A stretch of DNA of 64,000 bases, taken from Polyangiaceae bacterium (GTDB lineage Bacteria; Myxococcota_A; Polyangia; Polyangiales; Polyangiaceae). The translations under genes and the position numbers were made by a program. The notes under the pieces are model-generated. The model saw nothing but the letters and a program-made list of their open reading frames with translations, was not told the DNA's origin and did no database searches. Location of the stretch: contig JAHBVX010000003.1 of assembly GCA_019637295.1 (NCBI GenBank), positions 372,001 through 436,000 on the forward strand, given 5' to 3'. Each line of letters starts with the position of its first letter. The first letter of the stretch is position 1. This document shows positions 41,047 to 45,680 of the stretch, piece by piece.

Positions 41047-42300
41047 ATGGCAGCTCTGCAGCAGTACCTCGCCGTGCGCCAGACCAGCGAGGGGCTGTGC
41101 GAGCCGCTGGCGACCGAAGACTTCGTGCCGCAGTCGATGCCCGACGCGAGCCCGACCAAGTGGCACCTGGCTCACACCTCGTGGTTCTTCGAGACGTTCC
41201 TGCTCCGGCCCCACCTCGTGGACTACCGGCCCTTCGACGCGGGGTTCGAGTATCTCTTCAACTCGTACTACGAGGCGGTCGGCCCCCAGTACCCGCGCGC
41301 CGCGCGAGGCGCCATCACTCGTCCCACGGTCGAGCAGGTCTTCGACTATCGGCGCCACGTCGACGCCGCGATGACCACGCTGCTCCTGCGCCCCCTCGAG
41401 CCGCACCTGCTGGCGCTGGTCACCCTCGGAGTGCACCACGAGCAGCAGCACCAAGAGCTGTTGCTGATGGACCTGCTGCACCTCTACTCGAACCATCCGG
41501 CGCCGCCGGCGTACCGGGCAGGCAGCGCAGCGGCCCTACCCGCAGCGCCCCAGCGCTCCGTCGCCTTCGACGGCGGCGATGGCCAGGTGGGCCACGACGG
41601 CGATGGCTTCTGCTTCGACAACGAGACGCCACGTCATCGCGTGTGGCTCGAGCCCTTCGAGCTTGGGAGCCGTTTGGTCACGAACGGCGAGTACCTCGAG
41701 TTCATGGCGGACGGTGGCTACGAGCAGCCGGCGCTGTGGCTCTCGGACGGGCTCGCCCTCGCGCGACGGGAGGGCTGGCAGGCGCCGCTACACTGGCGGC
41801 GGCGCGAGGGCGCCTGGCTCGAGCTGACCCTGCGCGGGCTCGGGCCCGTCGCGCCGGAGCGGCCCGTCGCTCACGTGAGCTTCTTCGAGGCGGACGCCTT
41901 CGCCACCTGGGCGGGGTCACGCCTCCCGACCGAGCAGGAGTGGGAGCTCGCCGCAGCCGGCGCTCCGGTGTCGGGGAACCTCCTGGAGCGCGGGGAGCTC
42001 TGCGCCATCGCCGCAGGCGATGACGCCGGGATTTCGCAGCTGTACGGGGATCTCTGGGAGTGGACCCGCTCTGCCTACGAGCCGTATCCGGGCTTCCGCG
42101 CCCGTGAGGGCGCGATCGGCGAGTACAACGGCAAGTTCATGATCAGCCAGCAGGTGCTGCGCGGCGGTTCGTGCGCGACCCCGACGAGTCACATTCGTGC
42201 GACCTACCGTAACTTCTTCTACCCCCACCAACGTTGGATGTTCTCCGGGATCCGCCTCGCCCGCGGACCTGCCCGGCCAGCAGAAGGGATCTCGACATGA
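41047..42300 (+). CDS. egtB: Ergothioneine biosynthesis sulfoxide synthase EgtB
   Basis: 417 residues. The N-terminal DinB_2 domain (1-150) has the iron-ligand histidines: KWHLAHTSWFFETFLL near 37-52 and GVHHEQQHQELLLMDLLH near 130-147 (HxxxHxE motif). The C-terminal FGE-sulfatase domain (about 185-415) has LVTNGEYLEFMADGGY, LYGDLWEWTRSAYEPYPGF and VLRGGSCATPTSHIRATYRN. EgtB joins the thiol of (gamma-glutamyl)cysteine to hercynine. The methyltransferase EgtD usually adjacent is not here. It is coupled by ATGA overlap to an eight-cysteine lipoprotein. Confidence 0.95.
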   Translation: MAALQQYLAVRQTSEGLCEPLATEDFVPQSMPDASPTKWHLAHTSWFFETFLLRPHLVDYRPFDAGFEYLFNSYYEAVGPQYPRAARGAITRPTVEQVFDYRRHVDAAMTTLLLRPLEPHLLALVTLGVHHEQQHQELLLMDLLHLYSNHPAPPAYRAGSAAALPAAPQRSVAFDGGDGQVGHDGDGFCFDNETPRHRVWLEPFELGSRLVTNGEYLEFMADGGYEQPALWLSDGLALARREGWQAPLHWRRREGAWLELTLRGLGPVAPERPVAHVSFFEADAFATWAGSRLPTEQEWELAAAGAPVSGNLLERGELCAIAAGDDAGISQLYGDLWEWTRSAYEPYPGFRAREGAIGEYNGKFMISQQVLRGGSCATPTSHIRATYRNFFYPHQRWMFSGIRLARGPARPAEGIST

Positions 42301-42650
42301 AACGCTTCATCTACACCGTCGTCGCCTTTGCCTTGGCCTCGCCCGCGTGCGGCGCGGCCGAGACGCCTCCCGCCGTCGCGCCTCAACCCGAGCCCCCCCC
42401 TCCGCCGCCGTCGGGTGGTGCGCCGGGGGACCCCGGCGGCGCCACCGTCGGCGCGGGCTGCAAGGTCGGCGGGTGCTCGGCGACCGTGTGCTCCGAGGCG
42501 AGCGGCGAGGACATGATGACCACCTGCGAGTTCAAGCCGGAGTACGCGTGCTACCGCTCGGCGACCTGCGAGAAGCAAGCCGACGGCGCGTGCGGCTGGA
42601 CCCAGACGCCGGAGCTGTCGGCGTGCCTCGCCAATCCGCCCGCGGAGTGA
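42297..42650 (+). CDS. Eight-cysteine-cluster lipoprotein
   Basis: 117 residues from the ATG overlapping the egtB stop. Signal MKRFIYTVVAFALASPAC with Cys 18 as likely anchor, then a Pro/Gly linker (to about 55). The C-terminal 60 residues hold exactly eight further cysteines in a compact module (GAGCKVGGCSATVCSE, TTCEFKPEYACYRSATC, GACGWTQTPELSAC). This pattern matches, from memory, a myxobacterial eight-cysteine-cluster domain, presumably four disulfides; the function is unknown. A stable hairpin follows 4 bases after the stop. Confidence 0.75.
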   Translation: MKRFIYTVVAFALASPACGAAETPPAVAPQPEPPPPPPSGGAPGDPGGATVGAGCKVGGCSATVCSEASGEDMMTTCEFKPEYACYRSATCEKQADGACGWTQTPELSACLANPPAE

Positions 42651-42803: not shown

Positions 42804-43940
42804 ATGAACAGTTGGCGCACGGCAGTCTGGATGGCGGTAGGAGTTGGGGTGAGCTTCGGCGTGGGCGCGTGCGCTCCGGCCACAGCGCCGATCGAGTCCG
42901 AAGAGCTGACCGAGGACACCGAAGCGGTCGGGGAAGGCCTCACCGGTCCCGTGGCCGTGGGCTCGACGCTCAAGACGACGGGCAACGTGAACCTTCGCAC
43001 CGGGGCGTCGACCTCGCACAGCATCATCCGCGTCGTGCCCAAGGGCTCGACCGTCACCGTGGCGGCCTCCAACCCGAGCAACGGCTTCTACCAGGTCAAG
43101 CACAACGGCACGCTCGGGCACCTGCACGGCAACTACCTCGAGCCGACCGGCGGCTCGTCGGGCTCGCTGCCCACTGGCACGACCCTCACGGCGACCGCGA
43201 ACGTGAACCTGCGCTCGGGGCCGTCGACCTCCTACTCCGTGCACACGGTGGTGCCCGCGGGCGCGCAGGTCGCGCTGCTGTCACCCAATCCGAACAACGG
43301 CTTCTACAACGTGCAGTACTCCGGCTACTCGGGCTGGAGCTCGAGCAAGTACTACACGACGAGCGGCGGTGGTGGCGGCGGCAGCGGCGGCAGCGGCGGC
43401 ACGGCCGGTAGCGGCGGAACGTCGGGCAGCGGCGGCGCAGGCGGTGGCGCCGGCGGCGGCGCGACGGACAAGATCACCGCGGCCATGCAGCGGGCCGAGT
43501 GGGGCGTCGGCTTCTCGTACTGGTGGGGTCACGGGCGGTTCCTCGAGGGCGGTCCCAAAGGCAACGCCGGCTCGTGCTCGGGCTCCTGCCCGAGCTGCTC
43601 GCACAGCGGCAGCTACGGCGGCGACTGCTCCGGCTACGTGGCCAAGGTGTGGCAAGTCCCGTCGAGCAACACGAACATGAGCGTCGACAGCCACCCGTAC
43701 ACCACCGCGGAGTTCAACGTCAGCAGCAGCCAGTGGTCCGTCATCAACCGCAGCAACATCAAGAAGGCCGACGCGCTCAACTACCGCAGCAACGGCGCGG
43801 GACACGTCTTCATCTACTCCCACGGTGATGCCTGGGGCTCGATGTACGCCTACGAGTGCAAGAGCTGCGCTGCGGGCTGCGTGAAGGGCTATCGAACCGC
43901 CGGCAACGCCTACAAGACGATCCGCCGCGCGGGCTACTGA
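42804..43940 (+). CDS. Lipoprotein with two SH3b domains and NlpC/P60-like peptidase domain
   Basis: 378 residues. Lipobox-like VGAC with Cys 23. Two bacterial SH3 domains (about 48-110 and 118-180: TGNVNLRTGASTSHSIIRVV; TANVNLRSGPSTSYSVHTVV) bind cell wall in related enzymes. A Gly/Ser linker (about 183-218) leads to a cysteine peptidase domain with catalytic Cys 275 in YGGDCSGYVAKVW and likely His 334 in AGHVFIYSHGD, the NlpC/P60/CHAP arrangement. Predicted role: peptidoglycan hydrolysis, for wall remodelling or attack on prey. A sigma-54-type promoter precedes it, so expression is probably developmental or activator-dependent. Confidence 0.88.
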   Translation: MNSWRTAVWMAVGVGVSFGVGACAPATAPIESEELTEDTEAVGEGLTGPVAVGSTLKTTGNVNLRTGASTSHSIIRVVPKGSTVTVAASNPSNGFYQVKHNGTLGHLHGNYLEPTGGSSGSLPTGTTLTATANVNLRSGPSTSYSVHTVVPAGAQVALLSPNPNNGFYNVQYSGYSGWSSSKYYTTSGGGGGGSGGSGGTAGSGGTSGSGGAGGGAGGGATDKITAAMQRAEWGVGFSYWWGHGRFLEGGPKGNAGSCSGSCPSCSHSGSYGGDCSGYVAKVWQVPSSNTNMSVDSHPYTTAEFNVSSSQWSVINRSNIKKADALNYRSNGAGHVFIYSHGDAWGSMYAYECKSCAAGCVKGYRTAGNAYKTIRRAGY

Positions 43941-43948
43941 GGACTCCG

Positions 43949-45013
43949 ATGAACCGCAAGCGAGCAACCGTTGGCGCACTGGTCCTGATCGCGAGTGCGG
44001 CGCTGTGGTGGAGCCGGCCGTCGGACTCCTCGGCGGCGCCACCCTCCCGCGCGGTGTCCTCGACGCGAGCCCCGCCCGCCGCGCAGCCCGCGCGGACCGT
44101 CGCCCCGAAGGCGGACGCGAAGCGCGGCGTGGCTCGGCGCGCCGCCGCCGGCCCAGTCTACGCCGCGAGCTGGGGCAGCGGCGCGGACCAACTCGGCCGC
44201 GAGCGCCCGGACGAGGGTAACCCGCTCGGACCGATGAGCTTCACCACCGACGCCAAGGGCAGGCTGCTGGTGCTCGACGGGGTCAACGGGAGGCTGGTGC
44301 GACGCGGTGCCGACGGCTCACCCGACACGCTGATCGACATCGACGTGATCAACCCCGAGGACATCGCCGTGGGGGAAGACGGCTCTATCGCCGTGCTCGA
44401 TCGCTTCCGCGACAAGTCGGTGGCGCTCTTCGACGAGTCCGGTCGCCCGCTCGGCAAGTTGCCGCTCGAGGGGGACGGCGTGCCGGACGTCGGCAGCATC
44501 ACGTCCATCACGGTGGACGGGGGCGATGTCTACGCCGAGCGCGAGCACGGGCCGCTGGTCAAGCTGGGCTCCCTCTCCGGGCAGCCCGCGGCGGACCGGA
44601 CCGAGATCCCGGGTCGCCCGAGCCGCGACGGCCTGTCCTTCCTCAACGCTGGCATCATCGAGGCACCCGCTGGCCGGGCGTACGTGTCGTCCGTCGAGCG
44701 CGCGACGGGCAATCACCGCTATACCCGCGAGCTGCGGCTCGAGGCGCCGCTGCGGCAAATCCACCTGCTCGACACCGATCAAGCGGGGACCGTGTACTTC
44801 GGGGCCGAGCTCGAGCGCTCCGAGACCGAGACCAGCCTGATCGTGGTGTGCCTCGAGGCCCTGAGCGGCATGCCCATGGGCAGCGTGGCCGTCCCGGCGA
44901 ACACCCTCGCCGAAGAGTCCTTCCGGGACTTCGTGGTGCTCCCGGGGGGCGGTGTCCTGCACGCCCTGCGCACGGAGCAGGGCGTGAGCTACACCCGCTA
45001 CGACTGCGAGTGA
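43949..45013 (+). CDS. Exported NHL/beta-propeller-like protein
   Basis: 354 residues from the ATG 9 bp after the upstream gene. A signal-anchor helix (about 7-23) and an Ala/Pro-rich linker precede five or six propeller-type strands (SFTTDAKGRLLVLDGVNGRL, PEDIAVGEDGSIAVLDRFRD, SVALFDESGRPLGKLPLEGD, SITSITVDGGDVYAEREHGP). NHL-like propellers bind proteins, sugars or nucleic acids and here probably bind something outside the membrane. Co-transcription with the SH3b-NlpC/P60 gene is likely, and a 9-bp-stem hairpin follows 2 bases after its stop. Confidence 0.78.
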   Translation: MNRKRATVGALVLIASAALWWSRPSDSSAAPPSRAVSSTRAPPAAQPARTVAPKADAKRGVARRAAAGPVYAASWGSGADQLGRERPDEGNPLGPMSFTTDAKGRLLVLDGVNGRLVRRGADGSPDTLIDIDVINPEDIAVGEDGSIAVLDRFRDKSVALFDESGRPLGKLPLEGDGVPDVGSITSITVDGGDVYAEREHGPLVKLGSLSGQPAADRTEIPGRPSRDGLSFLNAGIIEAPAGRAYVSSVERATGNHRYTRELRLEAPLRQIHLLDTDQAGTVYFGAELERSETETSLIVVCLEALSGMPMGSVAVPANTLAEESFRDFVVLPGGGVLHALRTEQGVSYTRYDCE

Positions 45014-45134: not shown

Positions 45135-45680
45135 ATGGTTCGTACCCTCCCCCTTCACCTGCTCCTGGCCACGCTGCTGCTCGGCCCGGTCGCCTGCGCC
45201 GTGGGCTCGGAGGACGTGGACCCCGACAAGCCGACGCCGAAGCCCGTGGTCTCGCAGGGCTCGGGCCAGACCGAGCAGCCCGTCGAGGACGACGGGAGCT
45301 GGGGCGGCAAGAGCGACGACCCAGAGGACGGCGAGCCGGGGGCGGGCGGCGCCGGCGGCAACGGCGACGTGGGGGACGAGGAGCCCGATCCCGGCTTCGC
45401 CTGCGGCAGCGAGACCTGCTTCGCCGGCGAGTCGTGCTGCAACGGCTCCTTCTGCTACCCGACCCAGTGCACCCAGTGCTGCAGCGCTGGTAGCGGGGGC
45501 GGCGGCGGTAGCGGCGGCGGGGGCAGCGGCGGTAGCGGCGGCGGCTCCCCGCCCCCCCCCTCGGGCATGTGCGGCGGCAAGTGCGGCTCTCCGCTGCCGC
45601 AGTCCGCGGGGTGCTACTGCGACGTCTTGTGCGTCGTGAACATGGACTGCTGCCCGGACTTCTTCCTGTATTGCATCTGA
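45135..45680 (+). CDS. Lipoprotein with C-terminal somatomedin-B domain
   Basis: 181 residues from ATG 45135 (a GTG 18 bases upstream is in frame). Lipobox GPVAC, Cys 21. Acidic Gly-rich linker; a first Cys knot (CGSETCFAGESCCNGSFCYP) near 90-110; a Gly/Ser spacer; then residues 146-180 with eight cysteines spaced 3-9-1-3-5-0-6 (CGGKC, CYCDVLC, DCCPDFFLYC). That is exactly the spacing of the vertebrate somatomedin-B domain (vitronectin), a disulfide-knotted protein-binding module. The domain is rare in bacteria; it probably binds another surface protein. Last member of the 42-45.7 kb secretome run. Confidence 0.8.
   Translation: MVRTLPLHLLLATLLLGPVACAVGSEDVDPDKPTPKPVVSQGSGQTEQPVEDDGSWGGKSDDPEDGEPGAGGAGGNGDVGDEEPDPGFACGSETCFAGESCCNGSFCYPTQCTQCCSAGSGGGGGSGGGGSGGSGGGSPPPPSGMCGGKCGSPLPQSAGCYCDVLCVVNMDCCPDFFLYCI

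Follow-up and report, generated by a model that had tools for sequence, protein, structure and literature searches.

The somatomedin-B (SMB) domain is usually discussed as a module of the animal extracellular matrix. In ENPP3 and autotaxin, the SMB domains are packed against a large phosphodiesterase, and in ENDOU (placental protein 11) a tandem pair lies beside a nuclease. In vitronectin, an arginine of uPAR or PAI-1 binds Asp22 of the SMB domain, where it is flanked by Phe13 and Tyr28 (PMC8417595). The bacterial protein described here also ends in an SMB domain and is encoded on the plus strand at positions 45135 to 45680 of the window, by which we mean the whole 64-kb stretch of DNA that was analysed, from a soil-type member of the Polyangiaceae (phylum Myxococcota). 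Unlike the domains of ENPP3 and autotaxin, its SMB stands alone on a linker, and compared with ENDOU it has no nuclease and one SMB domain instead of two; SMB-SNase proteins do occur in Myxococcota.

The gene codes for 181 residues and a stop, and orthologues of it are present in G276 and G071, two genomes from a neighbouring genus. Its product begins with a hydrophobic signal peptide, residues 1 to 21 (LLLGPVA/C; 45135-45197), that runs to a presumably lipidated Cys21, followed by an acidic, Gly-rich linker of low complexity at residues 22 to 89 (45198-45401). A first cluster of eight cysteines, spaced C4C5CC4C4C2CC, occupies residues 90 to 116 (45402-45482), and a Gly/Ser/Pro linker of residues 117 to 145 (45483-45569) leads from there to the SMB domain at residues 146 to 180 (45570-45674). 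Taken as a whole, the presumed linker from residue 21 to the SMB domain is 27% Gly and carries a net charge of -17. The cysteine cluster and Gly linker that the preliminary description had placed ahead of the SMB domain are therefore both present; the cluster is specific to this lineage, is absent in both orthologues and gave no match in a Pfam search. Two other SMB proteins of the same genome, L017 and L020 (G000:C11:45101-48623), contain units of the form C-x6-C-x5-CC-x4-C-x4-C with an SMB at the end, about seven in tandem in L017 and one in L020, and the first cluster of the focal protein resembles a single such unit. The window also holds a second small, Cys-rich, lipoprotein-like reading frame at 42234-42650, which matches the eight-cysteine-cluster domain TIGR04289 at 27.6 bits, below the cut-off of 50.

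Residues 145 to 180 match the Pfam Somatomedin_B profile (PF01033) at 34.6 bits against a gathering cut-off of 23.1 (E 2.5e-8), and the alignment covers positions 2 to 37 of the 40 in the profile. Residues 146 to 180, CGGKCGSPLPQSAGCYCDVLCVVNMDCCPDFFLYC, hold eight cysteines, including a CC pair, at a spacing of 3-9-1-3-5-0-6, which is that of the N-terminal SMB of vitronectin (1oc0_B, 3bt1_B) in an ungapped alignment, just as had been proposed from the sequence. This exact spacing occurs a single time in the six-frame translation of the window, and 200,000 shuffles of the 40 C-terminal residues never produced it; a chance Cys-rich sequence is ruled out by these results and the profile score. 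A phmmer search of the PDB gave gapless alignments to the SMB domains of vitronectin and ENDOU, the best being to the tandem SMB of ENDOU (9ftw); the E-values are weak (best 0.0079), as is to be expected for 37 residues.

The predicted fold agrees with the profile. An AlphaFold2 model, built from an alignment of 59 SMB domains that all came from the window or from fetched loci, has a mean pLDDT of 87, with 91 to 94 over the SMB domain blocks. The best 50 Foldseek matches, with E from 0.09 upward, all bear SMB domains (vitronectin complexes, ENPP1, ENPP3 and autotaxin), with vitronectin at the top (TM-score 0.63/0.75). In VIA-align, the model superposed on the SMB domains of NPP3, autotaxin and vitronectin with Z of 3.9 to 5.5 and rmsd of 1.0 to 2.8 Å, the Z values being modest because the domain is tiny. 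The closest fold matches were the ENPP3 and autotaxin domains (for NPP3, Z 5.5 with 1.6 Å over 38 residues and, for entry 6c01, 1.0 Å over 37 residues), and vitronectin 1oc0_B gave Z 4.1. No competing fold appeared among the structural matches listed for the model. Judged by its profile match, residue-level alignment to vitronectin and ENDOU, and modelled structure, the C-terminus is a genuine SMB domain, and the gene is a further member of an already known domain family. The outcome that would speak against the assignment, a missing profile match together with an unlike fold, is contradicted on both counts.

The proposal that the protein is a lipoprotein is probably right. The focal lipobox itself, GPVAC, is atypical, with a proline at -3, and fails a PS51257-like pattern; cleavage by signal peptidase I (ACA/V) is an alternative. 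The two orthologues, by contrast, have canonical lipoboxes, LALGC in G276 (FVLAALALG/CAAGS) and FALGC in G071 (FSVFALG/CAAGS), and the N-terminal cysteine is conserved together with the stretch that follows it, CAVGS...KPVV in the focal protein and CAAGS...KPVV in both orthologues. Because of these canonical lipoboxes and the common ...KPVV stretch, lipidation of the conserved Cys21 is likely, and the focal protein is most likely a lipoprotein. A PS51257-like lipobox is also present in 9 of the 11 SMB proteins of this genome with a visible N-terminus.

The view that such domains are seldom found in bacteria does not survive a wider search. This genome alone has 20 SMB domains above the cut-off in about 14 proteins, and the survey across Myxococcota that the preliminary description had called for found SMB in 88 of 377 sampled genomes, several of which have at least 19 domains each; none was found in 14 control genomes. 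When a degenerate DNA pattern was searched over 84,980 species genomes, the matches listed were mostly from Myxococcota or 'Deltaproteobacteria' bins, including Sorangium cellulosum and Paraliomyxa, along with Neomarinimicrobiota, a Cryomorphaceae bin, Woesearchaeota and Ca. Iainarchaeum. On re-testing with Pfam, 11 of 11 genomes exceeded the PF01033 cut-off. Random sampling of phyla picked for such a prior match found SMB in 6 of 193 genomes for the phylum of Woesearchaeota, 3 of 149 for that of the Neomarinimicrobiota bin and 1 of 296 for that of the Cryomorphaceae bin, the last being the seed genome itself. On these counts, SMB is characteristic of Myxococcota and sporadic elsewhere, including Marinisomatota, Bacteroidota and DPANN archaea. 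The DPANN bins concerned (Woesearchaeota and Ca. Iainarchaeum) are represented by L066, L103, L108, L122, L126 and L077, and in L066 the SMB accompanies a sortilin/Vps10-like propeller. One record titled as a Klebsiella pneumoniae MAG (L065, contig CAMDBH010000032.1) encodes a Cys-rich SMB-type protein of Myxococcota-like appearance and is probably mislabelled or mis-binned. A tblastn search of 72,556 plasmid and 50,697 phage records with a single SMB query found no match, and a mobile or phage origin is unsupported by that search.

The proteins that carry the domain are diverse. The paralogues of the focal protein in its own genome (L001-L020) share with it a signal peptide, Gly-rich linkers and SMB, and several have other Cys clusters; they differ in that most have loops of another length and many have an additional enzyme domain. 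In this genome and its relatives, the domains fused to SMB are an animal-type protein-arginine deiminase (PF03068), SpoIID, lamin-tail, transglutaminase-elicitor, CAP and SNase. Further partners, taken from a scan of 91 SMB-bearing proteins, include Trypsin_2, PAD_porph, thermolysin, reprolysin, EGF, fn3, laminin-G and sortilin; metalloproteases are also among the secreted enzymes fused to SMB. The domains are often placed after Gly linkers. Among individual cases, L003 (G000:C20:171472-174588, minus strand) has two SMB domains followed by a PF03068 deiminase (130.9 bits), and L041 and L049 have the same appearance. In two marine bins (L062:4313-5866 and L068:1498-3009) the SMB lies within a PF00144 beta-lactamase/penicillin-binding-type domain. 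The Cryomorphaceae protein (L097:2647-5178) combines SMB with a Porphyromonas-type peptidyl-arginine deiminase, fn3 and a T9SS sorting tail, and its deiminase is a second type joined to SMB, unrelated to the PF03068 type.

The reading that we prefer, at a probability of roughly 0.5, is that the focal protein is an envelope lipoprotein whose C-terminal SMB is held off the membrane by the long acidic, Gly-rich linker and serves as a protein-binding module. The protein would be exported by Sec, lipidated at Cys21 and displayed at the outer membrane, and the eight SMB cysteines would be oxidised in the periplasm or extracellularly, forming four disulfides. By analogy with animal SMB domains, the module may act as a small rigid binder of a cell-surface, matrix or substrate protein rather than as an enzyme. 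Its genome would reuse this module on different secreted proteins, of which the focal one is one among about 14, and the attachment of SMB to diverse secreted enzymes fits an accessory binding module.

The same fusions to very unrelated partners can be read differently, with SMB as a disulfide-rich cap or spacer, passive and lacking any specific ligand, that makes surface proteins resistant to proteases and stress. This is possible, if on the doubtful side. Prokaryotic SMB domains carry the signature C-x-C-D (D in 155 of 187 distinct domains), GD or GN before the CC pair and D-[YF] after it, and beyond the Cys framework, the CxCD Asp, the GD and the D-[YF], most surface positions vary widely, as a cap would allow; the frequent position behind Gly linkers also suits a spacer. 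Against a cap, SMB is the sole folded domain conserved between the focal orthologues, which leaves nothing there to cap, and all animal SMB functions known to us are binding functions. A binding role modelled closely on vitronectin, in which the protein would mimic it and bind uPAR or PAI-1 in an animal host, is on the other hand highly improbable. The focal domain shares the Cys spacing, Asp22 and Leu24 with vitronectin and lacks Phe13, Glu23, Tyr27 and Tyr28; at the positions of Phe13, Asp22 and Tyr28 it has Leu, Asp and Asn, which does not reproduce the arginine pocket. Any implication of uPAR or PAI-1 binding in the preliminary description thus loses its footing, and because Phe13 and Tyr28 are replaced, sharing of ligands with vitronectin is unlikely on sequence grounds. 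Aromatic residues at both 27 and 28 occur in only 2 of the 187 prokaryotic domains, one of which also has D22 and L24. Nor is the vitronectin-like loop length remarkable, since loop 2 ranges from 6 to 14 residues across the 187 and has vitronectin's nine in 40 of them. No RGD directly follows the focal SMB as it does in vitronectin, the protein ending one residue later, and the orthologues come from Polyangiaceae metagenome bins, where nothing points to an animal host.

Gene order raises a further candidate partner. Two genes upstream, at 42804-43940 (plus strand), is a protein with two SH3b domains (SH3_3, 74 bits) and a conserved C-terminal domain of 150 residues containing a DCSGYV motif; between it and the SMB gene, at 43946-45013 (plus strand), is a candidate NHL-like propeller with an N-terminal signal or anchor (NHL 19.4 bits, below the Pfam cut-off of 20). 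The run had been described as an SH3b/NlpC-P60 hydrolase and a propeller, of which the two SH3 domains are borne out; the NlpC/P60 part gave no Pfam match at E up to 1, and the propeller has the sub-threshold NHL match only. The C-terminal domain (residues 229 to 378; window 43488-43937) carries the motifs DCSGYVAKVW and GHVFIYSHGDAWG, is conserved, often with other N-termini, in 45 of 108 family genomes, and is probably an NlpC/CHAP-like hydrolase outside current models. It is conceivable, but we consider it improbable, that the SMB protein is a partner or inhibitor of this putative hydrolase in envelope remodelling or in spore or cell-wall maturation. Synteny was followed through the SH3b neighbour, and the SH3b-propeller pair is kept in five genomes. 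The genome studied here (G000) and G276 both have the order SH3b-propeller-SMB, and G071 very probably has it too, with its genes divided between the ends of two contigs. The SMB start overlaps the propeller stop (ATGA) in both G276 and G071, which suggests translational coupling of the two genes, and one SMB paralogue in the focal genome is fused to SpoIID. G244, of the same genus, and G102 nevertheless keep the pair with no adjacent SMB gene, so the SMB protein is inessential to it. Between the focal protein and its G276 orthologue, alignment is limited to residues 117 to 181, as the linker is too diverged, and over 36 SMB codons dN is 0.16 and dS 0.50 (dN/dS about 0.33), meaning that the SMB residues are under mild purifying selection in this comparison.

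Returning to SMB as a protein-binding module, a bolder version, which we regard as rather unlikely, is that the Myxococcota domains are a lineage-expanded, general-purpose extracellular address or adhesion module with a common surface or matrix partner, and that prokaryotic SMBs were perhaps the source of the animal domain. In a FastTree phylogeny of the domain alone (187 prokaryotic and 4 animal SMBs), the animal domains are scattered within a group of 36 tips; 8% of nodes reach support of at least 0.9, and neither a single origin nor a direction of transfer between bacteria and animals is supported. No paper on bacterial SMB proteins was found in the open-access literature, which does not imply absence elsewhere; the phylum-wide expansion is undescribed in the literature searched, and the wider family is under-described.

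Taken singly, the focal gene is ordinary, and the expansion across Myxococcota with its many enzyme fusions is the more interesting part, to which this gene adds a clean minimal example, a single SMB on a tether. The bacterial and archaeal set offers a tractable system for studying the role of the module without uPAR, PAI-1 or integrins, and it bears on whether animals inherited or acquired SMB. If the bolder version were true, Myxococcota would have their own counterpart of the animal matrix-binding system, mounted on deiminases, transglutaminases, nucleases, wall enzymes and proteases.
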